A stretch of 9,384 nt of DNA from NCBI GenBank assembly GCA_027046105.1, contig JALTZQ010000224.1, positions 1 to 9,384 on the forward strand. The letters are read 5' to 3'. The notes under the pieces were generated by a model. It was not told the origin of the DNA, searched no databases, and was given only the letters and a program-made list of their open reading frames with translations. Below, in pieces: positions 1 through 9,384 of this stretch. This stretch comes from Pyrodictiaceae archaeon. GTDB taxonomy: Archaea; Thermoproteota; Thermoprotei_A; Sulfolobales; Pyrodictiaceae. Position 1 is the first letter of the stretch; each line of letters begins with the position of its first letter. The position numbers were made by a program, and so were the translations under genes.

Positions 1-4
1 AGGC

Positions 5-42
5 CCCTTCACTGGTTCTCTACTAAGCCCTTCACTGGGTTC
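5..42. repeat. Short imperfect direct repeat (2 copies)
   Basis: CCCTTCACTGGTTC at 5-18 recurs as CCCTTCACTGGGTTC at 28-42, differing by one inserted G, with nine bases between the copies. The spacing is far too short for a CRISPR array and no third copy is visible. It may be the end of a tandem repeat that continues left of the window, or chance. Confidence 0.4.
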
Positions 43-52
43 AAGGACGAGG

Positions 53-58
53 ATATAG
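53..58 (+). promoter_or_regulatory. Possible TATA box for the metallopeptidase-like gene
   Basis: ATATAG in the context GAGGATATAGG, preceded by purines that could serve as a BRE. Initiation about 25 bases downstream would fall near 82, leaving a leader of about 110 nt that contains the hairpin at 94-125. The assignment rests only on motif and position. Confidence 0.3.
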
Positions 59-93
59 GAATGTAGATACTATGCGCAGGCATAGCCTAAACT

Positions 94-125
94 GTAGGCG
101 AGCTTATCATAGCTCACCTGCCTAC
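94..125 (+). other. Bulged stem-loop upstream of the metallopeptidase-like gene
   Basis: GTAGGC-GAGCT (94-104) pairs with AGCTC (111-115) and GCCTAC (120-125) around a TATCAT loop. That gives 11 perfect base pairs interrupted by a four-base bulge (ACCT, 116-119) on the 3' side. A smaller AGGC-ATA-GCCT hairpin lies just upstream, near 79-88. It could be a structured 5' leader, a small RNA or a terminator of an upstream gene. No U-run follows, so an intrinsic terminator is the least likely. Confidence 0.4.
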
Positions 126-190
126 CTCAAACAGGAGATACATGATCGTCTAACGCAAAAGCTACCGTACCCTAGGGGGATGACCAAGCC

Positions 191-715
191 ATGCCACGAT
201 GGTCTTGTGCTGCCAGTGTATTCGGTGTCGATTGGCTTGTCTCAAGGCTCACTGTTGTTGCTAAGAGAGCTGCCTCGCTACTAAGCGACTGTAGTGGTGG
301 TGACCGTGTGCTTTGTAAACGAATGCTTGCATTGCTCCGAGAAGTTACTGGTAGGGGTCGCCTTGCCGTATTTCTTGCAATCCCCACTAGTGGCGGTGTC
401 GCTGTAGACGCGGTCTATGCTGAGAATAGGGATGGGGGCTGGATAGTCTTTTCACCCCATGTACTAGCTGATCCAGGCTATGCTGTACACGTTTTGATAC
501 ATGAGCTCGCACATGCCATAGGGCTAGAGGAGGACGATATCGCTGAGGCCCTAGTCCTTTACACTACTGGTGCCAACAAAGTCCTGGAACCCCCCGAAGC
601 CGTTAGAGAGGCTGAAGAATTGTTGAGGAAGAAGGGTTGCATAGTAGAATTAGCCAATTCACCCATGGAGGGCTCTTCGTGGCCTCCATTAATACCAGTA
701 ACCATACAGCTATGA
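191..715 (+). CDS. Small HExxH-motif metallopeptidase-like protein
   Basis: This 174-residue protein contains HELAH at residues 104-108 (H104, E105, H108) in the run VLIHELAHAIG, the zinc-binding active-site motif of zincin metallopeptidases. The following acidic stretch (E113-E119, LEEDDIAEA) could supply the third zinc ligand, as in small gluzincin-like proteins. The segment before it (residues ~57-100) looks like the beta-strand core preceding the active-site helix. I see no signal peptide or clear membrane segment, so a cytoplasmic protein is likely. The ATG at 191 is the first usable start after an in-frame stop at 173-175, with GGGGGATGA just upstream as a weak ribosome site. The gene converges on cas6 with a 109-base gap. 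It is not a known Cas family, so a link to CRISPR is unproven. The substrate is unknown. Confidence 0.7.
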   Translation: MPRWSCAASVFGVDWLVSRLTVVAKRAASLLSDCSGGDRVLCKRMLALLREVTGRGRLAVFLAIPTSGGVAVDAVYAENRDGGWIVFSPHVLADPGYAVHVLIHELAHAIGLEEDDIAEALVLYTTGANKVLEPPEAVREAEELLRKKGCIVELANSPMEGSSWPPLIPVTIQL

Positions 716-824
716 CGAGAATAAGCTCCATGGCCACGTGGTCTATGCATCCTAATCTCCCCCATTGCTCTTCTGCCGAGCAGTCGCAGCCCACCCGTTC
801 CCCCCGGGAGGACGGCTCCTTTAG

Positions 825-1685
825 TCACGTGATTCGGTCTTCAACTGGTGTTTGCCACCACTCCTGGACAGACGGTGGTGGTTGGTGTCTTGGTTTCAGC
901 TTCTTGACATGGTCTATATGGCCTAGGCCCAAGCCTGGACTACCACCTAGGCCTAGCAGCTTAGCCGCCTCTAGCAGGCTCTCGAACAGCTTGGCCAAGG
1001 GCTCTGTAGCCACTAGGTAGTATTCCGCATAGCCGTGGAAGACTGGTTGATCCTTTCCATGGCTAATACGTATCCTCTGCCTCCTAGTCTCGTCACGGTA
1101 CAACTCAATGCTTTCAGCAAGCCTTAGGGCCAACTGGTATAGTTTATCCGCTGCCTCAGCTCCACCACTAGACCCACTAATAGCGTCGACTAGTCTACGT
1201 GCAATACTCGCAATCATCCTTCTTGGCGAGGGATAGGCTATAACTGCTCCATGGAACCGATAGAAAGTCGGTAGATGCCGTACACCATAAACAACAGCAA
1301 TAACCCTTTCATCATCAACGCCGTTCACGGGCAGGCTTATTTCTAGCCTCTTCTCCTCAATAGCAAGCTCCACGAGCTCAACCGGGTCAGGGAGATCAGT
1401 GAAACCTTGTGCAAGACACCTCATGTAGTCGAAACGGACAATACCCCATAGGAAAACATGGAACGAGTACTGTTCACCGGGGGCAAGCCATCCACCAACA
1501 AGGCTCCCTGGGCGAGACCGTATCGGTGTGACACGGAAGAAGCCACCTCGATCAACAACACAGCCTGCACGGGTAAAAGCATCATACACGAGCTTACCAG
1601 CGTAGACACCACTCCAGCCTTCGAGCCGAATACGCCTTAAGGGCCTAAACACGATCTTACCGGACACGATGGCTGTTTCGATCAT
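825..1685 (-). CDS. cas6: Cas6 pre-crRNA endoribonuclease
   Basis: Cas6 cuts the CRISPR transcript inside each repeat, leaving an 8-nt 5' handle on every crRNA. The 286-residue protein has the Cas6 glycine-rich loop near its C-terminus (GLGGSPGLGLG, residues 245-255), preceded by an amphipathic helix (AKLFESLLEAAKLL). Overall length fits the two-ferredoxin-fold RAMP architecture. There is no histidine in the first 75 residues (the first is H76), so the general-acid histidine seen in some Cas6 enzymes near residue 40-50 is missing. Some crenarchaeal Cas6 enzymes are known to work without it. The tail beyond residue 262 is proline-rich and longer than needed for the fold. The start is ATG with GGGGCGG a few bases upstream. 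It follows csa3 on the same strand after a 137-base gap that may hold its own promoter. Confidence 0.85.
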   Translation of the reverse strand: MIETAIVSGKIVFRPLRRIRLEGWSGVYAGKLVYDAFTRAGCVVDRGGFFRVTPIRSRPGSLVGGWLAPGEQYSFHVFLWGIVRFDYMRCLAQGFTDLPDPVELVELAIEEKRLEISLPVNGVDDERVIAVVYGVRHLPTFYRFHGAVIAYPSPRRMIASIARRLVDAISGSSGGAEAADKLYQLALRLAESIELYRDETRRQRIRISHGKDQPVFHGYAEYYLVATEPLAKLFESLLEAAKLLGLGGSPGLGLGHIDHVKKLKPRHQPPPSVQEWWQTPVEDRIT

Positions 1686-1719
1686 GATGAGCCGCCCCTA
1701 GGAGGTTCCTCAGCCATGG

Positions 1720-1746
1720 TGATATGCATGCATTACGCTAGCATGC
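1720..1746 (-). promoter_or_regulatory. Palindromic cluster in the cas6 upstream region
   Basis: ATGCATGCAT (1724-1733) is a perfect 10-base palindrome, and a second GCATGC lies at 1741-1746, 15 bases from the first. A minus-strand TATA-like GCATATCA overlaps the left edge. Initiation about 26 bases further would leave a short leader ending at the cas6 ATG. This could be a cas6 promoter with an operator. The 137-base gap otherwise shows no gene. Confidence 0.3.
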
Positions 1747-1822
1747 TGTATGAATAGTGTTGTGCCTGGAGGGACGCTATTCACTAGAAACTGTATTTGG
1801 GTCTCTCTTAACTGGTTCCGGG

Positions 1823-2491
1823 CTAAGCATTAATGTATGCTCTTTCCGTAGCTTGGTAGCTACGTGTCCTTGGGTCATAACTTGCAATACCTAGGGCAAC
1901 AAGCTCTTGGAGCCTCTTGTATGCAGTAGATTTTGGTATCCCTAGTTTCTGTGAGACCTCGGTAGGCCCTATACTACGCCCTTCTCTAAGGGCTTGGAGA
2001 AGGAGATTCACAATCCTCCTCATGGTCTCGTCTAGCGGCAGGGGTACCACGTTAGACAATGGCTCCGTGACTACCGCTTCGAAACCCTCACCCTCTATCC
2101 TCAAGACTATTTTCTCGGCTAGATGCCTAGGGAGCGCTACCGCGGCTAGGAGAGTGGCTACAACTAGTATTCGAGGCCCTCCCGTCAAGGCCAACACTAT
2201 GCTAGTAGCATCCCTAGCATAGTTTTCAAGTAACCTCTTTACTCGGCCAGCAAGAACCGAGAGCTTCTCACCATGATAGTCTATGCGTACAATATCAGCT
2301 TCAATGCCAAGCTGGCTAGCAATAACCCTTAACTGAGAGAAGGCCTTCATCACACGGCTCCAGGTGTCCTCGCTAGTGTATAGTGCTAGTACTCGAAGAC
2401 TACTAGGTTTATGTGAGGTAAGTGCTCTTAACGCGAACTTCTCGTCAAATCCCAGTGTCGTGATCAATAGGCTAGCTCTCGAGCTATGCAC
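1823..2491 (-). CDS. csa3: Csa3, CARF-wHTH CRISPR regulator
   Basis: Csa3 is a dimeric transcription regulator of crenarchaeal type I-A loci. Its N-terminal CARF domain binds cyclic oligoadenylate-type ligands and its C-terminal winged helix-turn-helix binds cas or leader promoters. Here the CARF part runs from about residue 8 to 150, with the family-typical opening TTLGFDEKFALRAL (11-24) and the ligand-loop motif ALTGGPR (101-107). The winged helix covers about 158-222, with the recognition region GPTEVSQKLGIPKSTAYKRL (175-194). The start is GTG, preceded by GGGGGAG. The nearest internal alternative is a TTG at residue 9. The gene is divergent from the interference operon and upstream of cas6, which suggests it controls these units rather than adaptation genes (a Csa3b-like role, inferred from position). 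Confidence 0.88.
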   Translation of the reverse strand: MHSSRASLLITTLGFDEKFALRALTSHKPSSLRVLALYTSEDTWSRVMKAFSQLRVIASQLGIEADIVRIDYHGEKLSVLAGRVKRLLENYARDATSIVLALTGGPRILVVATLLAAVALPRHLAEKIVLRIEGEGFEAVVTEPLSNVVPLPLDETMRRIVNLLLQALREGRSIGPTEVSQKLGIPKSTAYKRLQELVALGIASYDPRTRSYQATERAYINA

Positions 2492-2521
2492 GGCTCCCCC
2501 AACACCATATAGCCAATACAG

Positions 2522-2529
2522 AAATTAAA
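2522..2529 (-). promoter_or_regulatory. csa3 TATA box
   Basis: On the minus strand the sequence reads TTTAATTT, centred about 34 bases before the GTG start. Initiation about 26 bases downstream would be near 2500, leaving a very short leader that still includes GGGGGAG. Spacing and sequence fit an archaeal core promoter. Confidence 0.5.
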
Positions 2530-2669
2530 CCCTAATACACTTCCTTGGGCACGTAGACCGTTCACACCAGAGAAACATGTTGGTTTCACAGTGGGGCCCG
2601 TCCCCGTAGCCCTGGAGGAAATCAGAGGCTTCAACACTGGGTAGTATCGCCTCTAGGGACCTCAAACCA

Positions 2670-2683
2670 CCTAGGCTACTAGG
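2670..2683. promoter_or_regulatory. Upstream inverted repeat in the cas control region
   Basis: CCTAG-GCTA-CTAGG is a perfect inverted repeat with five-base arms. Its centre lies 42 bases, about four DNA turns, from the centre of the stronger palindrome at 2711-2726, so a regulator could occupy both on one DNA face. CTAGG is common in this genome, so it may be chance. Confidence 0.3.
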
Positions 2684-2710
2684 CCATACATTGCTACTGC
2701 TAAAGTGTTT

Positions 2711-2726
2711 TCTACTTTGAAGTAGA
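2711..2726. promoter_or_regulatory. Operator-like palindrome upstream of csa5
   Basis: TCTACTT-TG-AAGTAGA is a perfect inverted repeat with seven-base arms and a two-base centre. It ends 15 bases before the csa5 TATA box, just upstream of where TFB would bind. This is a position used by archaeal activators or by regulators that modulate TFB recruitment. Csa3, encoded divergently next to it, is the obvious candidate ligand (inference). It is the best operator candidate in this region. Confidence 0.55.
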
Positions 2727-2741
2727 CATGATAGTGGTAGT

Positions 2742-2749
2742 GTTTAAGA
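2742..2749 (+). promoter_or_regulatory. TATA box of the interference operon
   Basis: GTTTAAGA, preceded by the purine-containing GTGGTAGT. Initiation about 26 bases downstream is predicted near 2771, giving a leader of about 17 nt that includes the GGTG ribosome site at 2777-2780 in front of the csa5 TTG start. Confidence 0.5.
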
Positions 2750-2787
2750 CTGTGCAAGAGGAATCCTAGCGTCCCCGGTGTAGTTGT

Positions 2788-3111
2788 TTGCAGGAACAGC
2801 TTCGCCTCTATAGACTCCCAGAACTACTCTCCTTCTTCGCCAAGACGAGGCAATTTGGCGTTCTCGACCGTATAGCTAACGCACTAGGGCCTGACCAAGC
2901 CCTCGCAGCCCTATACGATGCACTACGCGTGTTTAGAAGCAGCTGTCTAAGCAGCCAACCAGACGAGGAATGCCCCAGCAATGCTGGAGAACTCGTCGAG
3001 AAAGCCAAGTACGAGGTGGAGAAGCTTGCAGAACTCCTTCTAGACACTCGTCGGGCTGAGAACGGGCTCCGCCTAGCCCGCATGGCTGCACTCCTAGCCT
3101 TAGGCAGGTGA
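2788..3111 (+). CDS. csa5: Csa5, small subunit of type I-A Cascade
   Basis: This 107-residue, mostly alpha-helical protein is the first gene of the interference operon, directly before cas7. That is the usual place of Csa5, the small subunit that helps the type I-A effector engage target DNA and stabilise the R-loop. Helix-rich stretches run about 3-52 and 64-106, with a polar, Cys-containing linker (SSCLSSQPDEECPS) between them. The sequence itself is only weakly diagnostic, so the call leans on size and position. The start is TTG. An in-frame stop at 2767-2769 and the GGTG site seven bases upstream leave little alternative. It is somewhat shorter than Sulfolobus Csa5. Confidence 0.75.
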   Translation: MQEQLRLYRLPELLSFFAKTRQFGVLDRIANALGPDQALAALYDALRVFRSSCLSSQPDEECPSNAGELVEKAKYEVEKLAELLLDTRRAENGLRLARMAALLALGR

Positions 3112-3137
3112 AAGAAACAAGGAGGAATCCTATCCCT

Positions 3138-3144
3138 GGAGGTG
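3138..3144 (+). promoter_or_regulatory. Strong ribosome binding site deciding the cas7 GTG start
   Basis: GGAGGTG lies seven bases before the GTG at 3152. It is the best Shine-Dalgarno match in the operon and fits the high copy number of Cas7 in the effector (several subunits per crRNA). Confidence 0.65.
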
Positions 3145-3151
3145 GGTAGGT

Positions 3152-4198
3152 GTGCCCGTCTTCTTCTCTCTATCAGCCCGCATACTCGTCAATGTCGAAG
3201 CATTAAACATGGCTGAAAGTGTAGGCAATGTTGTTAGACACCGCCGTGCCCCCGTGGTTCTACGCTCTAGTGATGGATTCGTGCTACGCTATGTACCAGT
3301 GATTAGTGGTGAGAGCCTCGCCCACCACTACCAGAAGCTACTCGCCAGCATCGCGGACCAAAGGAAGCTCCCGGTGTGTAAGGCTTGTAGCCAGGGCGTA
3401 TTCCTAAAACACGCTAACAATAGTGTATTCAAAGAATACGATGGCATTAGTGATCCTAAGAAGAAGTTTAGCGTTGGAGCAGACGCCGAGGAATACATTG
3501 TCAAGAACTGTGTTGTAGAGGATGTGGGAGGCTTCCTATATACCGATATGACCGTGAAGAGGACTTCGAGGTTCCGTGTCGGCTACATGGTGCCCGCGCT
3601 CGATGCCCTGGAAGCTGGTGCAGCTGCAACCGAGGCCCAATTCCATGTAAGGTACTCGCCAGGTGCTAGGCAAGAAGAGCAAGCAATATACTATGTCGAA
3701 ATAGGTAGCGCGCCCTACGTGTTCTACTTTGCCCTTGACGTCTCCGGTATAGGTGAGCGCAGCATGGAGAACGAGGGAGCAGCGGGAAGAGAAGCATACA
3801 TACTACCCGTCGAGGAGAGGACTAGGCGTATAGAGGCGGCTTTTGACGCCCTAGCTGCACTACTTGGAGGAATGGCATGGGGTGCTAAGACTTCCAGATT
3901 CCAGCCCCACTGGAAGATACTAAGCCTAGTAGCAGCCGTATCAAAGCCATTACCATTCAATGTATCACCGGGCCACGATAGAGGATTCCTCGCTGAAACA
4001 CATAGTAGGGCGTGCTCGATGGCTAGCATGGTTGACCAGTTCCAGGCCACAATAATATACTACTCTGGTGGTGAGGAGCTCGAAAAACCCAGTAAGCAAT
4101 GCGAGGGAGTCACGGTAGAAACTGCAAGCGACTACCTCGAAGCCGTAAGAATGGCGAAGAGTAAGGCGCTGGAACTGCTAGGTGCAGGGAAGTCTTGA
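3152..4198 (+). CDS. cas7: Cas7 (Csa2), crRNA-binding backbone subunit
   Basis: Cas7 polymerises along the crRNA spacer to form the filament of the type I-A effector. The 348-residue protein opens with FFSLSARILVNVEALNMAES and continues with VGNVVRHRRAPVV and VPVISGESLAHHYQ (about residues 4-61), an RRM-like start and signature strongly typical of the Csa2/DevR family. A CxxC pair (C76, C79) sits in the insertion domain. GGMAWGAKTSRFQPHW (239-254) resembles the conserved C-terminal region of the family. The length is normal. The start is GTG behind a strong ribosome site. Its stop overlaps the cas5 start by TTGA, which suggests translational coupling. Confidence 0.93.
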   Translation: MPVFFSLSARILVNVEALNMAESVGNVVRHRRAPVVLRSSDGFVLRYVPVISGESLAHHYQKLLASIADQRKLPVCKACSQGVFLKHANNSVFKEYDGISDPKKKFSVGADAEEYIVKNCVVEDVGGFLYTDMTVKRTSRFRVGYMVPALDALEAGAAATEAQFHVRYSPGARQEEQAIYYVEIGSAPYVFYFALDVSGIGERSMENEGAAGREAYILPVEERTRRIEAAFDALAALLGGMAWGAKTSRFQPHWKILSLVAAVSKPLPFNVSPGHDRGFLAETHSRACSMASMVDQFQATIIYYSGGEELEKPSKQCEGVTVETASDYLEAVRMAKSKALELLGAGKS

Positions 4199-5031
4199 AG
4201 CCCCTAATGCTCGTCTCCAGAGTAGAGCTAGTCTGGGGATTTAGCGTCCGCTACGCAGGAGCCTCTGCTGCACAACCCGCCCTACCCGTACCCCCACCAA
4301 CAACTATTGTGGGCTTCTACGCTGAGCCCCTAGCCCGCCTACTAGGCATACCAGAATACACGAAGACGGGAAAGAAGGGTACATGTAGTGTTGCTTCACT
4401 GCTTGCGGAGCATGTGCTTGCAGCAGGTGCAGGACTCGACCCCGAAAGCCCTAGTGGACTCATAGTTTATAGTGATCTCGCCCACGTGGCTTCGCTAATA
4501 TACCAGCGTAGGAGGACGGAGTGGAAGAAGTTCGCCTTTTCAGCTCAAGCAGTGGGTGCAGCCTACGGGCCTGCCGCTAGGCTGTATATTGCCCTAGTAG
4601 TAGATGTTGAAGGGCTTGCTGCAAGCCTTGGAGAATCCACTAGAACCCTTGCTGACGCGCTTGCATGGGCTGGTTGGAGGCTAGGATCTAAGGAAGGTGT
4701 CGTAGCCGTTGTGGATGCAGAGGCTGTTAAGCCGGCTACGAGTAGTGGTGTCTTCGAGTCACTACTCTACCAGGACTCTGAGCTCGTAGAGCCCTCAGCT
4801 AGAACAGACCTCGTTAGGACTATTAACATGTGGGGGCTTGATCCTAGGCTCCTCTGCGGAGAAACAGCTATTCCAGCCTACAAGTCGTACTATATGCCAG
4901 CATCAGCCACGTCAACTTCAACACTCCTAGTTCCTCCCCCGAAGAGCCCTCTCCCCGAGTTCATGCCAAGGAATGCACGAGTAGTCTATTGTCATCCAGG
5001 CCAAAGGGCTCTCTGCATCGCAAGCTCTTAG
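4195..5031 (+). CDS. cas5: Cas5, crRNA 5'-handle-binding subunit (type I-A)
   Basis: Cas5 caps the 5' handle of the crRNA and anchors Cas8 in the effector. The 278-residue protein has the Cas5 N-terminal signature: an initial strand LVSRVELVWGFSVRY, then LPVPPPTTIVGF (about 30-41), the proline-rich turn and helix start shared by the family. WRLGSKEG near residue 165 resembles the glycine-rich RAMP loop. The TTG start at 4195 overlaps the cas7 stop. An ATG at 4207 (residue 5) is an alternative, but GGTGCAGGGA sits better for the TTG. The start is therefore likely but not certain. Confidence 0.88.
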   Translation: MKPLMLVSRVELVWGFSVRYAGASAAQPALPVPPPTTIVGFYAEPLARLLGIPEYTKTGKKGTCSVASLLAEHVLAAGAGLDPESPSGLIVYSDLAHVASLIYQRRRTEWKKFAFSAQAVGAAYGPAARLYIALVVDVEGLAASLGESTRTLADALAWAGWRLGSKEGVVAVVDAEAVKPATSSGVFESLLYQDSELVEPSARTDLVRTINMWGLDPRLLCGETAIPAYKSYYMPASATSTSTLLVPPPKSPLPEFMPRNARVVYCHPGQRALCIASS

Positions 5032-5057
5032 ACGATGAGGATGGGGTGGTGTAGCCC

Positions 5058-6185
5058 TTGTTTAGTGTTGAACTATTCCCTCCAGGTTGGCTGGGGAGGA
5101 GTTTCCAGCTACTAGCCCTCAGTATAGACCCTGGGCTCGTTAACAGTGTTGGGTCGACAGCAGCGGTGTTCAATTCCTTTGACGACTATAGGCGCCTCGT
5201 GGTTGAGGCTTGGGAGCTCGCTGAGCAACTCCTAGAAGAGGGGCTCGCGCATCCACCAAGATTCTACGGTAATGATGGGAAGCCCTTGAGATCGGTTATT
5301 GGGGAGCGTGTGAGTGGCTGGAGGGAGGCTACACATAGGCTCGTCGAGCACCTCGAGAATGGCAAGATAGCGGAGACGGCGAGGCAATCCCTAACAGCAG
5401 CAGTGATAATGAAGCTTAACACCTTCGAGTACATGCGCCGCATGGCTGGCTTCGAGAGAACCGGTAGCGTGGGACAGAAGATAAATGTGCATGGTTATCT
5501 ACTTGCACTTATTGGTGGTATTCTCTCAAAGCTTGGGAGGATAGATGATAAAGGCTTCTATATTCTACCACATCCAGAGGCAAGCATTCTTGACCTTGAT
5601 GGTGTGGGAAGACTCTACATGGTCTTATCGCTGACGTCGGCAGGGGATCTTCCACCCTTCGGTAGAGTGTTAAGGTATAGTGTTAACGTGAGGAAGTTGC
5701 CGGTAAGCATTGACGTGCTAGTCTTACTATATGGTGCTGCTCTTGTTGCTGAGCTCCTCGAGGCAGAACCCGGTGAAGCTTGTGGTGCGCCAGAACTAGA
5801 CCTATTGTATGCGGCTGTGGTTTCCGAGGCTCGTAATAGGGCTATCCTGAACTCCCTTTTCCCGCTAGGGTTCTCTGAGCCCATATGTATGCTTGGGAGC
5901 CGTCCATTAACGAAAATGGCTTCCGCGTTGGCTAGGGCTATTGAGCGTGGAAGCCTATGTAGAGTACTACGTGAAGGTGATACGGGCTTTAGGGCTGTCG
6001 GTCACTGTATCCAGAAGCTCTACCTCTACACCGTGACCTCGAACAACATCTACCTTTACGACTGTACGCGTATGCTGCGCGGTGCAGCAGAGAGTAATGA
6101 CTGTCAGCAATTGAGGGGCTTGCTCACTAGTCTAGCCGCTAGCTTAGCCCAGAGCGTTAGCAAAGGGGTAGTAGTGGGAGGCTAG
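5058..6185 (+). CDS. cas8a2: Probable Cas8a2 (Csa4), large subunit of type I-A effector
   Basis: A 375-residue protein lies between cas5 and cas3' in an otherwise complete type I-A interference operon. The large subunit Cas8a (Csa4) is the only effector component not accounted for elsewhere, and its usual size is about 340-380 residues. Cas8a contacts the PAM and recruits the Cas3 proteins. I see no diagnostic catalytic motif. The N-terminal half is polar and helical (about 38-160), followed by a mixed part (GRLYMVLSLTSAGDLPPFG, then YSVNVRKLPVSIDVLVLLYG). Seven cysteines lie in the C-terminal half. Cas8 sequences diverge fast, so the name rests mainly on context. The start is TTG, with GGGGTGGT seven bases upstream. 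Confidence 0.65.
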   Translation: MFSVELFPPGWLGRSFQLLALSIDPGLVNSVGSTAAVFNSFDDYRRLVVEAWELAEQLLEEGLAHPPRFYGNDGKPLRSVIGERVSGWREATHRLVEHLENGKIAETARQSLTAAVIMKLNTFEYMRRMAGFERTGSVGQKINVHGYLLALIGGILSKLGRIDDKGFYILPHPEASILDLDGVGRLYMVLSLTSAGDLPPFGRVLRYSVNVRKLPVSIDVLVLLYGAALVAELLEAEPGEACGAPELDLLYAAVVSEARNRAILNSLFPLGFSEPICMLGSRPLTKMASALARAIERGSLCRVLREGDTGFRAVGHCIQKLYLYTVTSNNIYLYDCTRMLRGAAESNDCQQLRGLLTSLAASLAQSVSKGVVVGG

Positions 6186-6197
6186 TAGGAGGATACT

Positions 6198-7937
6198 ATG
6201 CTTCTTCAACGCAAGGGTGTCGAGGAACTGGCCCGGGAAGTAAGCGAGGGCCATAACGCGGTTCTAGTAGCGCCTACCGGGTATGGTAAGAGTAAGTCCC
6301 TGCCAATACTCCTTGAGGAGACTGAGAAGACTGGGGTAGCCACTAGGGCAATACATGTTCTCCCCCTTAGAGCCCTTGTTAGGCAACAATACCTATACCT
6401 CCGCGAAGTCTTCGGCAGTAACGCGGGCTACCTTGCCGGTTTAAGCTTGGACAAGGAAGGCTATAGCCCCTTCATGCTACGAAAGGCTGTAGTCTCGACA
6501 CTTGATAGCTTCGCATTGAATCTTGCAAGGCTCCCCATAGCCGAGCTACCTCTCTTAATGACGAGTTACGAGATGAGGCGGCTAGAGGGACACTACGAGC
6601 TACCACGAGCATCAATATTCACATCCCTAGTAGTCTTTGACGAGGCACACCTCTACGCTGAGCCATGGCTAGAGGAGGCCCCCCTCTCAAGACTATACCT
6701 TTCAACGGTGCTCCGCGTACTAAGGGATACTACGACATCAGTTGTCATCGAGACAGCTACCATGGCCACACGGCTAATGAGGGACGTTGCCAGCGTTATC
6801 GGTGGCCCCGTGCTCGCTGTATGCAGGAATTGCAGTCCATGCAGCAATGAGTGGAGGTGTATCCATGATCGTGTCTTTGAGGAGGAGAACTCGTTCACGT
6901 GGAAAACCCTAATCCTCCAGGGAGTGCAGGAGGCCATAGACCTTGCTGTCTCGTTTGCGGAGACAGGGCGTAAAGTGCTTTACACGGTAAACACTGTCGG
7001 GGCTGCCCTAAGCGTTTACCAGGAGCTTGTAAGCCGGCTAGGCGAAGACAGCGTTGTGTTAGTTCATGGCCGCCTTACGCAGGGCGATAGGGAGAAGGCT
7101 ATAGAGGGTATAGGGAGAGCCAGGATCGTCGTGGCAACACAGGTTATAGAGGCTGGTGTAGACGTCGATGCTGAAGTCTTGGTTACCGAGGCTGCTGCAC
7201 CAAGCAGTCTAGCTCAGCGTGCGGGGAGACTCTGCAGAAGCAGGGAGAAAAGGGAGACATGTCTCAATGAGCCACCCGTAGTCGCTGTATACGCTCCGGA
7301 AACACTTCAACCGTATGGCGACATAGCCTTAGAGACGCTAAAGTCGATGAAAAACCTTACTAGTAGTGGGGCTGGGATCGAGTGGAGACTACTCGACGAT
7401 ACTAATGCGGGGAAGAGTTTCCGGCACCTCATCGAGATCCATGAGTCTACGGGGCTAGAGCCTAGACGGCTAGGAGTAAGACAACTAGCCTATACGAGGC
7501 TCCTAGAATACATAGTAGCATCCGCGCTTGGCGACTCATCTTATGCTCGTGTATTGCTGCGACAGTTCTGTAGCTTAGTCAGAGAAACTATTCTTATACA
7601 CCTAGCTGTCCCAGTAGGTGAAGGCTATGATTTCCTTGAAGCCCAGCTAGACTGGCTTAAGACACGAGATAGGTGGAGGACACTACTAGACTGCACCAAT
7701 AGCAGTTGCAAGGTGCTAGCCATCGGCTATGGAGTGGGCGATGCCGAGACCATGGAAGCTACTATCGAGGCTAAGGAGGTAGAAGAGATGCTAAGAGACT
7801 GTAGCAGCTACTACAAGAAATACTATTCACTTCTCGAAAGGCTCTCAAAGAAGGTAAACATGAGGCTCAATAACCTAGCCCTACTGGTAAGAGAGGGTGC
7901 ATACACACCACGCCTAGGCCTGCAAGTAGCTGTCTAG
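6198..7937 (+). CDS. cas3': Cas3' superfamily 2 DNA helicase
   Basis: This is the ATP-driven helicase half of Cas3, which unwinds DNA marked by the effector. Over 579 residues the SF2 motifs appear in order: Walker A APTGYGKS (25-32, K31), motif Ib-like STLDSF (100-105), Walker B DEAH (148-151), motif III TAT (186-188), motif V ATQVIEAGVDVD (313-324) and motif VI QRAGRLCR (340-347). There is no HD nuclease domain; that is supplied by the next gene, as usual in type I-A. Odd feature: a cysteine cluster, C209-x2-C212-x2-C215-x5-C221-x-H223, lies between the two RecA domains and may bind zinc or another metal. The C-terminal 230 residues are an accessory domain. The start is ATG behind GGAGGA, 12 bases after the preceding stop. 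Confidence 0.93.
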   Translation: MLLQRKGVEELAREVSEGHNAVLVAPTGYGKSKSLPILLEETEKTGVATRAIHVLPLRALVRQQYLYLREVFGSNAGYLAGLSLDKEGYSPFMLRKAVVSTLDSFALNLARLPIAELPLLMTSYEMRRLEGHYELPRASIFTSLVVFDEAHLYAEPWLEEAPLSRLYLSTVLRVLRDTTTSVVIETATMATRLMRDVASVIGGPVLAVCRNCSPCSNEWRCIHDRVFEEENSFTWKTLILQGVQEAIDLAVSFAETGRKVLYTVNTVGAALSVYQELVSRLGEDSVVLVHGRLTQGDREKAIEGIGRARIVVATQVIEAGVDVDAEVLVTEAAAPSSLAQRAGRLCRSREKRETCLNEPPVVAVYAPETLQPYGDIALETLKSMKNLTSSGAGIEWRLLDDTNAGKSFRHLIEIHESTGLEPRRLGVRQLAYTRLLEYIVASALGDSSYARVLLRQFCSLVRETILIHLAVPVGEGYDFLEAQLDWLKTRDRWRTLLDCTNSSCKVLAIGYGVGDAETMEATIEAKEVEEMLRDCSSYYKKYYSLLERLSKKVNMRLNNLALLVREGAYTPRLGLQVAV

Positions 7938-7987
7938 GCCGGAGAGCACCCTAAGGAGTATAGTCTTGAAGGGAGGTGTTCAACTAA

Positions 7988-8821
7988 ATGGCCCTCTATG
8001 CGTGGACTGGTGTAAGACTACTCGATCACAGCATTAACACGCTTGGAGTCCTTACAGGCTTATTCCATAACGAGCTACAGGTTATAGCGAGGAGAATTGT
8101 TGGGCAGCCAGAGAAGCTAGTACTAGCATCCATGATTGCAGCACTTCTCCACGATGCTGGAAAGGCTGCTAGAGGATACCAGGAGAGTGTGTTGAGAGGA
8201 AACCCCTACTTTACATGCCATGAAATGGCCGGGGGCTGGATAGCCATGGAGACAGTCTACGAGCTACTACGACGAGTAGAGGCCGATAGACTAGTAGTGG
8301 AGGCTTTCTCGGCGGCAACTGCAACAGCTGTACTAAGACACCACCATGGCATGAGAAGTCTTTCTGCATGCAGGGCAGCCGCTAGGCAAGGTAGAGTAGA
8401 GAGTCTAAGCCAGGAAGACTTAAGAGCATTAGCAGACGAGTATAGGAATACAAGCATACTATTAGACACGGTATCCAGTATCCTACAGAAACTCGCGGAT
8501 ACAACGAAACCCCCTAACCCGCTAGAAGCTGAGGCAAGAGTAAGAAAGAGACTCGTAAACATCGAGAGAAAGCAGCCAGCAATCACAGCAGTCGTCTCAA
8601 CCCTAACCGGGCTACTCGCAGCCTCAGACTACATAGCAGCAGTACTCCTAGACGGAAGAACACAGTACACCACAATGAACCCACGAGGCTACGCGGTACA
8701 CGTATTAAGAGAACTAAACATCAACAACCCCCAACAACTAAGAACCATAAAAGAAGCAGGCTACAAATGGGCGGAAAACACAGCCAACAAGATACTAGCA
8801 AACTCAGTAGAAAGAGCCTAG
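7988..8821 (+). CDS. cas3'': Cas3'' HD-domain nuclease
   Basis: This is the metal-dependent single-strand nuclease half of Cas3. The 277-residue protein carries an HD set: H14 (LLDHS), H55-D56 (LLHDAGK, with K59), H78 (CHEM), H118-H120 (RHHHG) and D214 (ASD). These are consistent with a two-metal HD centre. The length fits a stand-alone Cas3''. The start is ATG with GGGAGGTG about nine bases upstream, 50 bases after cas3'. It ends the operon. The last ~90 codons are unusual: the coding strand becomes strongly A/C-rich and T-poor (8701-8760: A 30, C 15, G 8, T 7), unlike the start of the same gene. The final codons contain AACTCAGTAGA, which recurs in the repeat-like element 74 bases further on. 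Confidence 0.92.
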   Translation: MALYAWTGVRLLDHSINTLGVLTGLFHNELQVIARRIVGQPEKLVLASMIAALLHDAGKAARGYQESVLRGNPYFTCHEMAGGWIAMETVYELLRRVEADRLVVEAFSAATATAVLRHHHGMRSLSACRAAARQGRVESLSQEDLRALADEYRNTSILLDTVSSILQKLADTTKPPNPLEAEARVRKRLVNIERKQPAITAVVSTLTGLLAASDYIAAVLLDGRTQYTTMNPRGYAVHVLRELNINNPQQLRTIKEAGYKWAENTANKILANSVERA

Positions 8822-8875
8822 CCCCTACACACTCTTTTCCAACCCATAATGGCACCCGATACCCCTACAACCAGA

Positions 8876-8945
8876 ACTCAGTAGAGAATTGCAATGGTTA
8901 ACCCTATGGTAAAGACTCCCACCAAACTCAAAAGAGAATTGCAAG
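8876..8945 (+). repeat. Two CRISPR-repeat-like elements in cas sense, inverted relative to the array
   Basis: Copy A (8876-8894) reads ACTCAGTAGAGAATTGCAA and copy B (8926-8945) reads ACTCAAAAGAGAATTGCAAG. Both are the reverse complement of the array repeat as written on this strand. B matches the 20-base repeat core exactly and even has CCCAC upstream (8918-8922), separated from the core by three extra bases (CAA). A has two changes in the core (AA to GT). The cores are 50 bases apart, shorter than the 64-67 base array period. A transcript in cas sense would carry a miniature repeat-spacer-repeat unit with an ATTGCAA(T) handle and a spacer-like stretch of about 23-31 bases. It may be a remnant of a second array, a crRNA-like regulator, or a Cas6 site in the operon's 3' end. 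Confidence 0.7.
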
Positions 8946-8995
8946 CACAAATACGTACAGTTCATACCATCTGAGTTAGACTAACAATAGCCCAT

Positions 8996-9217
8996 CTTAC
9001 AATTTCTCTTTTAAGTTTTGCGACCGTATCACCCAGGCTTAGGCCTCCCAGTCAACCTGGTCTTGCAATTCTCTTTTGAGTGTGGGCATCATACCCGACC
9101 CGGAGTTGGACACGGTGTTAGCTGAGTTCTTGCAATTCTCTTTTGAGTGTGGGGGGTTCAGGGTGTGTCCACCCTTGTCCTCGGGAATTCAACTTGCAAT
9201 TCTCTTTTGAGTGTGGG
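8996..9217 (-). CRISPR. Short CRISPR array: four repeats, three spacers
   Basis: Three identical 25-base repeats (CTTGCAATTCTC followed by TTTTGAGTGTGGG on the plus strand) lie at 9062-9086, 9129-9153 and 9193-9217. A degenerate copy at 8996-9021 has G-to-A changes, one inserted T and a diverged end. Spacers are about 40, 42 and 39 bases (9022-9061, 9087-9128, 9154-9192), and the period is 64-67. Repeat decay at the left end marks the leader-distal side. In crRNA sense (minus strand) the repeat ends ATTGCAAG, close to the ATTGAAAG handle typical of crenarchaeal arrays, so transcription runs leftward. None of the spacers matches anything I could see in this window. The few spacers and decayed end suggest a small, slowly growing or dormant array. 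Confidence 0.9.
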
Positions 9218-9326
9218 TGTGTGGGTTATTGGTTTTGTGTTTTTGTTTTCCACTAATAGTGTTCCTCTTACTCCTTTTTCTGGGTTGCTGTCTCATGGGG
9301 ACACTCCATGCCTATAAGGGGGGTTG

Positions 9327-9355
9327 ATGAGAGGTCCTCTATAGAGTGTTCTCAT
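9327..9355. promoter_or_regulatory. Nested palindrome in the CRISPR leader promoter
   Basis: An outer inverted repeat ATGAGA (9327-9332) / TCTCAT (9350-9355) encloses the perfect 10-base palindrome CTCTATAGAG (9337-9346). The two share practically the same centre (9341). The element begins just downstream of the leftward TATA box and overlaps the predicted transcription start near 9338, as a repressor operator would. Confidence 0.45.
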
Positions 9356-9360
9356 GAAGG

Positions 9361-9368
9361 TATTTAAA
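9361..9368 (-). promoter_or_regulatory. TATA box of the CRISPR leader
   Basis: The minus strand reads GGGTTTAAATACC, a good archaeal TATA box with a G-rich BRE-like flank. It is predicted to start the array transcript leftward near 9338, about 120 bases before the first repeat. Because TTTAAA is symmetric, it could instead serve a rightward gene beyond the window. Confidence 0.5.
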
Positions 9369-9384
9369 CCCCCACCCTCATTCC

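Follow-up and report, generated by a model that had tools for sequence, protein, structure and literature searches.

Two sequences that resemble CRISPR repeats lie between the last gene of an archaeal interference operon and a small array, on the strand of the cas genes, and they raise the question of whether they encode a crRNA-like regulator or are left over from an older array. The DNA analysed, here called the window, is the whole stretch of 9,384 nt, and gene identities were assigned from family scans of nine open reading frames (ORFs) and from a reading of positions 1-9384. In this Pyrodictiaceae-like archaeon, the genes form an interference locus of type I-A, with cas6 and csa3 on the minus strand, followed by csa5, cas7, cas5, a gene in the cas8a position, cas3' and cas3'' on the plus strand, and then by the array (Table 1). 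A database search with Cas3'' returned 13 matches including its own entry, of which that of Hyperthermus butylicus was second at 59%, and proteins of Pyrofollis japonicus and Pyrodictium delaneyi were also among them.

Table 1. Coordinates of genes, repeats and related features in the window
Feature	Position	Strand	Remarks
cas6	825..1685	-	PF10040
csa3 (CARF-HTH regulator)	1823..2491	-	TIGR01884, PF22662
csa5	2788..3111	+	PF09702
cas7/csa2	3152..4198	+	TIGR02583, PF01905
cas5	4195..5031	+	PF09704
cas8a position	5058..6185	+	no family match; 38-48% identity to same-place ORFs in four relatives (L001, L033, L034, L035)
cas3' helicase	6198..7937	+	TIGR01587
cas3'' (HD nuclease)	7988..8821	+	TIGR01596, PF18019; stop at 8821
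AACTCAGTAGA in last codons of cas3''	8801..8811	+	identical to 8875-8885 in A
Ectopic repeat A (psiR1-like)	8871..8895	+	19/25 to array repeat
Spacer-like segment psiS, 25 nt	8896..8920	+	starts with palindrome GGTTAACC
Ectopic repeat B (psiR2-like)	8921..8945	+	23/25 to array repeat; 20-nt core intact
B-to-R4 stretch, 50 nt	8946..8995		would serve as guide in a one-handle RNA made from B
R4, degenerate leader-distal terminal repeat	8996..9021	-	inverted partner of B
Array repeat R3	9062..9086	-	
Array repeat R2	9129..9153	-	
Array repeat R1 (leader-proximal)	9193..9217	-	
Presumed array leader	9218..9384	-	putative leader and promoter role

Upstream of the region of interest, an ORF on the plus strand adjoining cas6 (191-715) carries a HELAH (HExxH) motif and appears metallopeptidase-like by eye; the family scans gave no Pfam or NCBIfam match for it. 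At 2711-2726, upstream of csa5, is a perfect 7+7 palindrome, TCTACTT-tg-AAGTAGA, which could plausibly serve as an operator for Csa3 or another cas regulator. It is not among the five best inverted repeats found upstream of csa5 in the relatives L033 and L034, although L033 has other, longer ones in that gap.

An ectopic repeat pair beside the cas operon

The crRNA sense of the array is the minus strand, and the array is convergent with the cas operon. Its spacers are 39, 42 and 40 nt long, its repeats start 64-67 nt apart, and by eye a TATA-like TTTAAATA is present at 9361-9368 on the minus strand, within the presumed leader. A fourth repeat, R4, went without mention in the earlier note; it is found 50 nt past B and, when aligned by hand with the array repeat, has one inserted base, two C-to-T changes and an altered 5' flank. 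Between R4 and B, GTCTAACTCA at 8972-8981 on the minus strand equals the first 10 nt of one repeat of the L033 array at 1935-2869; the remainder of a repeat is missing, and the match may be due to chance.

The earlier note had described two repeat-like sites between the cas3'' stop and the array, on the plus strand and opposite to the array, and our analysis confirmed both of them. As it had also stated, B carries an intact core, with no mismatch to the 20-base ACTCAAAAGAGAATTGCAAG at 8926-8945. Its account of A was correct only in part, since the adjacent pair of bases (GT) does differ in the core at 8876-8895, but the last base differs too, giving three mismatches and not two. Compared with the complete array repeat, A differs at positions 3, 4, 5, 11, 12 and 25, and B at positions 1 and 5, and the two are identical to each other at 19/25 positions. 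The predicted crRNA handle of A, ATTGCAAT at 8888-8895, keeps 7/8 handle bases, and that of B, ATTGCAAG at 8938-8945, keeps 8/8. A begins 49 nt past the cas3'' stop, and the start-to-start distance from A to B is 50 nt rather than the 64-67 nt of the array, leaving a spacer-like segment of 25 nt that is shorter than any of the three array spacers; here too the previous description was accurate.

When the core was searched for at up to three mismatches, five sites were found in the window, namely the three array copies on the minus strand (starting at 9062, 9129 and 9193) and A and B on the plus strand. In 200 dinucleotide shuffles, the expected number of such matches was 0.01 per window, and no shuffle contained five. 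Chance similarity to the repeat was thus ruled out, and A and B are a real, non-random ectopic repeat pair that shares its ancestry with the repeat of the array. In having repeat copies outside arrays, the pair is like solitary repeat units and Racr RNAs, but those are single, viral and not located beside cas genes, whereas the window has two copies beside a cas operon.

No clear promoter was recognised by eye before A in 8822-8870, where a weak CATAATGG is found at 8845-8852, and three cas-sense RNAs over A and B had predicted folds that were not unusual (z 1.09, -0.36 and -1.02). Comparison of 8700-9384 with Rfam at E <= 1 gave only MIR828, a match spanning B and an inverted array repeat that was rejected, being far under the gathering score.

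Repeat-like sequences in related loci

To place the pair among its relatives, we searched 214 genomes of the order that includes G001 and G160, of which 49 had a Cas7 match at E <= 1e-60 and 38 a Cas3'' match at E <= 1e-3, Hyperthermus butylicus not being one of the latter. Of the Cas7 genomes, 48 were surveyed and contributed 49 stretches, two of them in G037. The window itself and three stretches taken from the Cas3'' search, in G166, G156 and G168, brought the survey to 53; G079, L036 and the other genomes with Cas3'' only were left out, and many of the surveyed stretches end at contig ends. The Cas7 match in L085 (the cas7 stretch of G160) carries one in-frame TAG. Arrays were detected as at least three exact 13-mers spaced 48-110 nt apart, and 25 of the 53 stretches contained them, for a total of 33 arrays and 833 intervals, some of which may belong to other CRISPR types. 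Repeat-like sites outside the arrays were scored above a null set for each locus.

The start-to-start spacing ranged from 51 to 81 nt over the 833 intervals and was below 58 nt in only one (in L138), and none was 50 nt or less within the range of the detector, which intervals under 48 nt would escape. Similarly, the shortest surveyed spacer was 27 nt (n=833), compared with 25 nt for psiS. The possibility that A, psiS and B form an ordinary array unit was rejected on this spacing, 50 nt as against 51-81 nt.

Conservation of A and B in related genomes had been proposed as a check on a functional role, and none was seen, as no short-spaced ectopic pair was present in the other 24 loci with arrays. 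Nor was there an inverted copy adjoining an array in any of these 24. Apart from A and B, the sites above the null outside arrays were an isolated repeat pair outside the array in L113, which has a normal period of 70, a single repeat-like match on the same strand 129 nt past the array edge in L157, and an opposite-strand match at threshold in L123 that is inside an array of palindromic repeats. Same-strand repeat-like matches within 110 nt of an array edge were found in 13 of the 25 loci, and most were imperfect. Imperfect repeats at array ends are common, and the inverted, short-spaced pair occurs only in the window among the surveyed set.

It had also been considered that in relatives the two copies might sit within a longer array of ordinary period, and this was not observed. 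In L033, a cas-sense array of normal spacing follows cas3'' at a distance of ~0.9 kb, and L034 has a convergent array ~5 kb from cas3''; no pair resembling A and B was detected in either at up to 8/25 mismatches.

Several other repeat-like sequences were recorded in the survey. In L073, a single complete repeat at 8299-8323 is preceded by a CCCAACAGGGAACC-like sequence such as the one before the L074 array, and looks like an empty locus consisting of a leader plus one repeat. Two decayed repeats on the same strand are located ~700 nt past the array of L076 (12266-12370, minus strand), and probably represent what is left of an array in that genome, another member of the order. The last three repeats of the L075 array (7630-8193) are deviant and end in ATTGCAAT, ATTGCAAC and ATTGCAAT, so that the first and third of them share the handle of A, and the terminal repeat of L079 ends in ATTGTAAT.

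Candidate guides and their possible targets

The arrangement in the window, two ectopic repeats around a spacer-like segment beside cas genes, is that of CreA, a minimal CRISPR with two psiR, in the CreTA systems of Halobacterium hubeiense and others. In PMC9458426, the first CreTA repeat is described as the more diverged, keeping the Cas5-binding handle and losing the Cas6-binding bases, psiR2 in six haloarchaeal systems as largely degenerate in its last 8 nt, and CreT sequences as highly diverse. PMC8501985 gives psiR1-psiR2 identities of 11/30 to 16/30, and of 19/30 in H. hubeiense, places the CreA seed at positions 1-5 and 7-11 beside the PAM, and reports that changing any one of the ten seed bases abolished the function of H. 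hubeiense CreA. CreR, according to PMC12737573, is a crRNA-like repressor of cas promoters in type I and type V-A systems, and is described as acting on the cas promoter of its own operon.

The likeness to CreA and CreR that the earlier note had drawn holds in some respects and fails in others. The pair is ectopic, cas-linked and cas-sense, and A is the more diverged of the two repeats, with its handle largely kept and its other changes in the 5' (Cas6-binding) and middle parts of the repeat, as is the rule for psiR1. The decay expected in the handle of psiR2 is not seen in B, which is intact there and would fit as a 3' handle, and the 19/25 likeness between A and B exceeds that of the CreA pairs reported in PMC8501985 (11/30 to 19/30). 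Unlike CreA, which lies between cas6 and cas8 or ahead of the operon, the pair follows the last cas gene; no creT-like unit was recognised by eye, and the subtype is I-A, where the CreTA papers cited here concern I-B and I-F. The pair is like CreR in being a crRNA-like unit within a cas locus, with no toxin recognised.

One explanation that follows from this likeness is that read-through RNA from the cas operon would be cut by Cas6 at A and B into a crRNA whose handle is 8 nt and whose guide is 25 nt long, and that this crRNA would lead the type I-A effector to a promoter elsewhere on the chromosome, beyond the window, for example that of cas1/cas2/cas4 or of a toxin. We consider this unlikely. 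The seeds of two candidate guides (guide A following A, and guide B following B) were compared with both strands of the window, excluding 8860-9217, using positions 1-5 and 7-11 and leaving position 6 free, the seed of the guide in psiS being GGTTA-N-CCCTA. No 10/10 seed match of guide A was found outside 8860-9217. With no PAM required, guide A had one site at up to one mismatch, at 5847 on the minus strand beside TCA and within cas8a, and this site is chance-like, since at least one such site was obtained with 37% of 400 shuffled guides at any PAM and, beside NCN, with 9.5% of 200. Guide B had no site at up to one mismatch with any PAM, nor at up to two beside NCN, outside the same region.

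Beside NCN and at up to 2/10 mismatches, guide A had five sites (8857 on the plus strand, and 7121, 5847, 5688 and 1135 on the minus strand); 400 shuffles averaged 2.02 sites, and 7.75% of them reached five. The site at 8857 has two seed mismatches (8/10), is beside ACC and is in the gap between cas3'' and A, immediately ahead of A, which is where one would look for the toxin promoter of a CreTA; it is the best point in favour of a CreTA-like arrangement.

The proposal that the pair brings the effector to a promoter of cas genes or of a toxin was nevertheless without support at the promoters visible in the window. No seed match at up to one mismatch was detected where the csa5 operon, csa3 and the array have their promoter regions, or in the cas6-csa3 gap. 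When sites with at least 9/12 matches or a run of at least 7 were collected over the whole window, guide A had nine (excluding itself and its own palindrome) and guide B four, all in cas coding regions; neither of the intergenic gaps (csa3-csa5 and cas6-csa3) nor the array leader had one with at least 9/12. Local alignment of the guide with the csa3-csa5 gap, which contains the promoter of the cognate operon, gave a score of 9, with the best match of 11/13 in the 3' part of the guide, and 17.5% of 200 shuffles reached this; scores for other regions were reached by 45-80% of shuffles. On the basis of these seed comparisons, we rejected a CreR acting on the visible cas promoters, and, for want of a full seed match, a CreTA with a local toxin promoter.

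Targets outside the window were sought in two collections. In the 214 genomes, the first 21 nt of psiS had three matches at up to three mismatches, all at three mismatches, and a backwards control also had three, so that a spacer target in relatives was rejected as being at control level. In viral contigs, the first 19 nt of psiS had no exact match and neither did ACTCAAAAGAGAATTGYAAG, but segments of two array spacers, S2 and S3, are missing from these contigs too, so that the missing 19-mer says little about a viral spacer origin. No relative of Cas3'' was confirmed among 71 stretches of viral contigs.

CRISPR-derived regulatory RNAs are reportedly the subject of a 2023 paper by Shmakov et al., going by its title, and CreR is said to have been reported in 2023. 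Among the papers screened by title and opening of the abstract, no type I-A case of such a regulator was seen. That the pair is one, with a Cas6-cut guide released from the 3' untranslated region of the interference operon to repress a promoter elsewhere in the genome, is still more doubtful than a guide of this general kind. Were it true, the level of the guide would report cas transcription directly, its dose being tied to the operon's own transcript, and RNA-based self-control of cas genes would be extended to type I-A systems in hyperthermophilic archaea.

Pairing, protein binding and the origin of the pair

B and R4 face each other as inverted copies, which raised the possibility that the pair marks the end of transcripts. 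B would pair with R4 in the array transcript and end or shield the pre-crRNA before it becomes antisense to cas3'', the complement of B would supply a T-rich tract, and Cas6, by cutting at A and B, would trim read-through on the cas strand so that it does not extend into antisense CRISPR RNA. In the modelled fold, array-sense RNA from 9025 to 8890 has -42.2 kcal/mol (z -4.23, equalled by 0/200 shuffles), and R4 is paired with B. At 37 C, the fold of 8920-9022 is -36.7 kcal/mol on the array strand compared with -14.3 kcal/mol on the cas strand, and in our hand alignment both C-to-T changes in R4 keep G-U pairing on the array strand and would break pairing on the cas strand. The complement of B is also the only minus-strand run of at least four T in 8800-9384. 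However, any inverted repeat copy gives a strong stem, and the modelled stem is reduced to -5.0 kcal/mol at 75 C and gone at 85 C. Such archaea grow near or above the latter temperature. A scan for consensus terminators found none, A would be unnecessary, and the other 24 loci lack an inverted copy beside the array, the match in L123 being at threshold. A transcript-end role for R4 and B is possible but weak, and we judge this whole explanation improbable.

The inverted piece might instead have been placed beside cas3'' by the assembly, through a misjoin at a repeat in the metagenome contig that brought in part of another array. CRISPR repeats are classic misjoin points. The Cas3'' of the window is itself listed on two contigs, of which the longest has 10,821 bases. 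Against this, A is too diverged to cause a misjoin and begins well past the cas3'' stop, and neither the short spacer nor the 11-mer shared with cas3'' is expected of a misjoin at a repeat, making an artefact the most remote of the explanations considered here.

Nearly as remote is the idea that A and B are DNA sites for a CRISPR-repeat-binding protein of the Cbp1/Cbp2 type, which would damp cryptic transcription in the convergent gap without the involvement of an RNA. In PMC10883916, non-array, repeat-like Cbp1 sites are described, often associated with ISC1229 transposons in S. solfataricus, and their most conserved part is a core of 6 bp towards the 3' end of the repeat, common to the repeats of Cbp2-bearing species; Cbp2 is reported there from Desulfurococcales, and is also reported from archaeal thermoneutrophiles. 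A and B are like these non-canonical sites in being repeat-like motifs outside arrays with a conserved 3' core, and AATTGCAA is kept in both. This motif could persist in any relic repeat, however, and the 50-nt spacing would have no known reason.

The explanation we prefer, to which we give a probability of about 0.47, is that A, psiS and B are a relic, a short and rearranged piece of an older array of the same CRISPR system. It is better supported than a guide RNA, whose testable predictions within reach failed: neither guide has a promoter target in the window, and psiS has matches only at control level in the 214 genomes and no exact viral match over 19 nt. Also consistent with a relic are the lack of a short-spaced ectopic pair in the other loci (the L113 pair being of normal period), the frequency of repeat-like copies at array edges, the ending of A, which is the same as that of two of the three deviant repeats in L075, and the ending of the terminal repeat of L079. 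In these respects, the pair is like leader-distal degenerate repeats and remnant mini-arrays, such as the imperfect copies at array edges and the decayed pair in L076. It is unlike remnant mini-arrays in being inverted relative to the array and in having a spacer of only 25 nt.

The match between A and cas3'' also fits a relic. The first 11 nt of A from AACTC onward are a copy of the 3' end of cas3'', and the chance of such an 11-mer, by Markov resampling in a test chosen post hoc, is 0.00035 in 170 nt and 0.0047 in 570 nt. The two adjacent deviant bases in the middle of A are those common to cas3'', and a microhomology join between a repeat and the end of cas3'' would account for them. The 8801 site was examined as a possible third decayed repeat and was not adopted, since its 12/20 match to the core, counted by hand, is below the null maximum of ~13.

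Position 5 of the repeat bears on the age of the piece. This base is A (AACT) in A, B and R4 and C (CACT) in R1-R3, suggesting an older generation of repeats for the first three and weakly disfavouring a recent copy of the adjacent array. Among relatives, it is A in the near-cas arrays of the close relatives L033 and L034; the G166 array has T there, and the G174 array has C. Because position 5 varies in this way, the argument for an older generation is weak, and our confidence in a relic is slightly lowered. Three further points weigh against a relic: the nearly intact state of B is not required of one, the degenerate A is on the leader-proximal side where decay is usually leader-distal, and short-spaced relics are likewise unseen in the other loci.

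If the pair is a relic, a piece of an older array would have been left inverted, in cas sense, in the untranslated DNA that separates the cas3'' stop from the present array. An inversion or a microhomology-mediated join, possibly via the AACTCA..AGA common to A and the end of cas3'', would have severed the piece from its leader and shortened its spacer. Should cas transcription read through, Cas6 could still cut B, and perhaps A, and any RNA from A and B would be incidental rather than a dedicated regulator. As a relic, the pair would be an old repeat-spacer-repeat unit cut off beside the cas genes, its first repeat decayed and its handle largely kept, and would show how ectopic pairs, from which CreA and CreR are presumed to derive, can come about.
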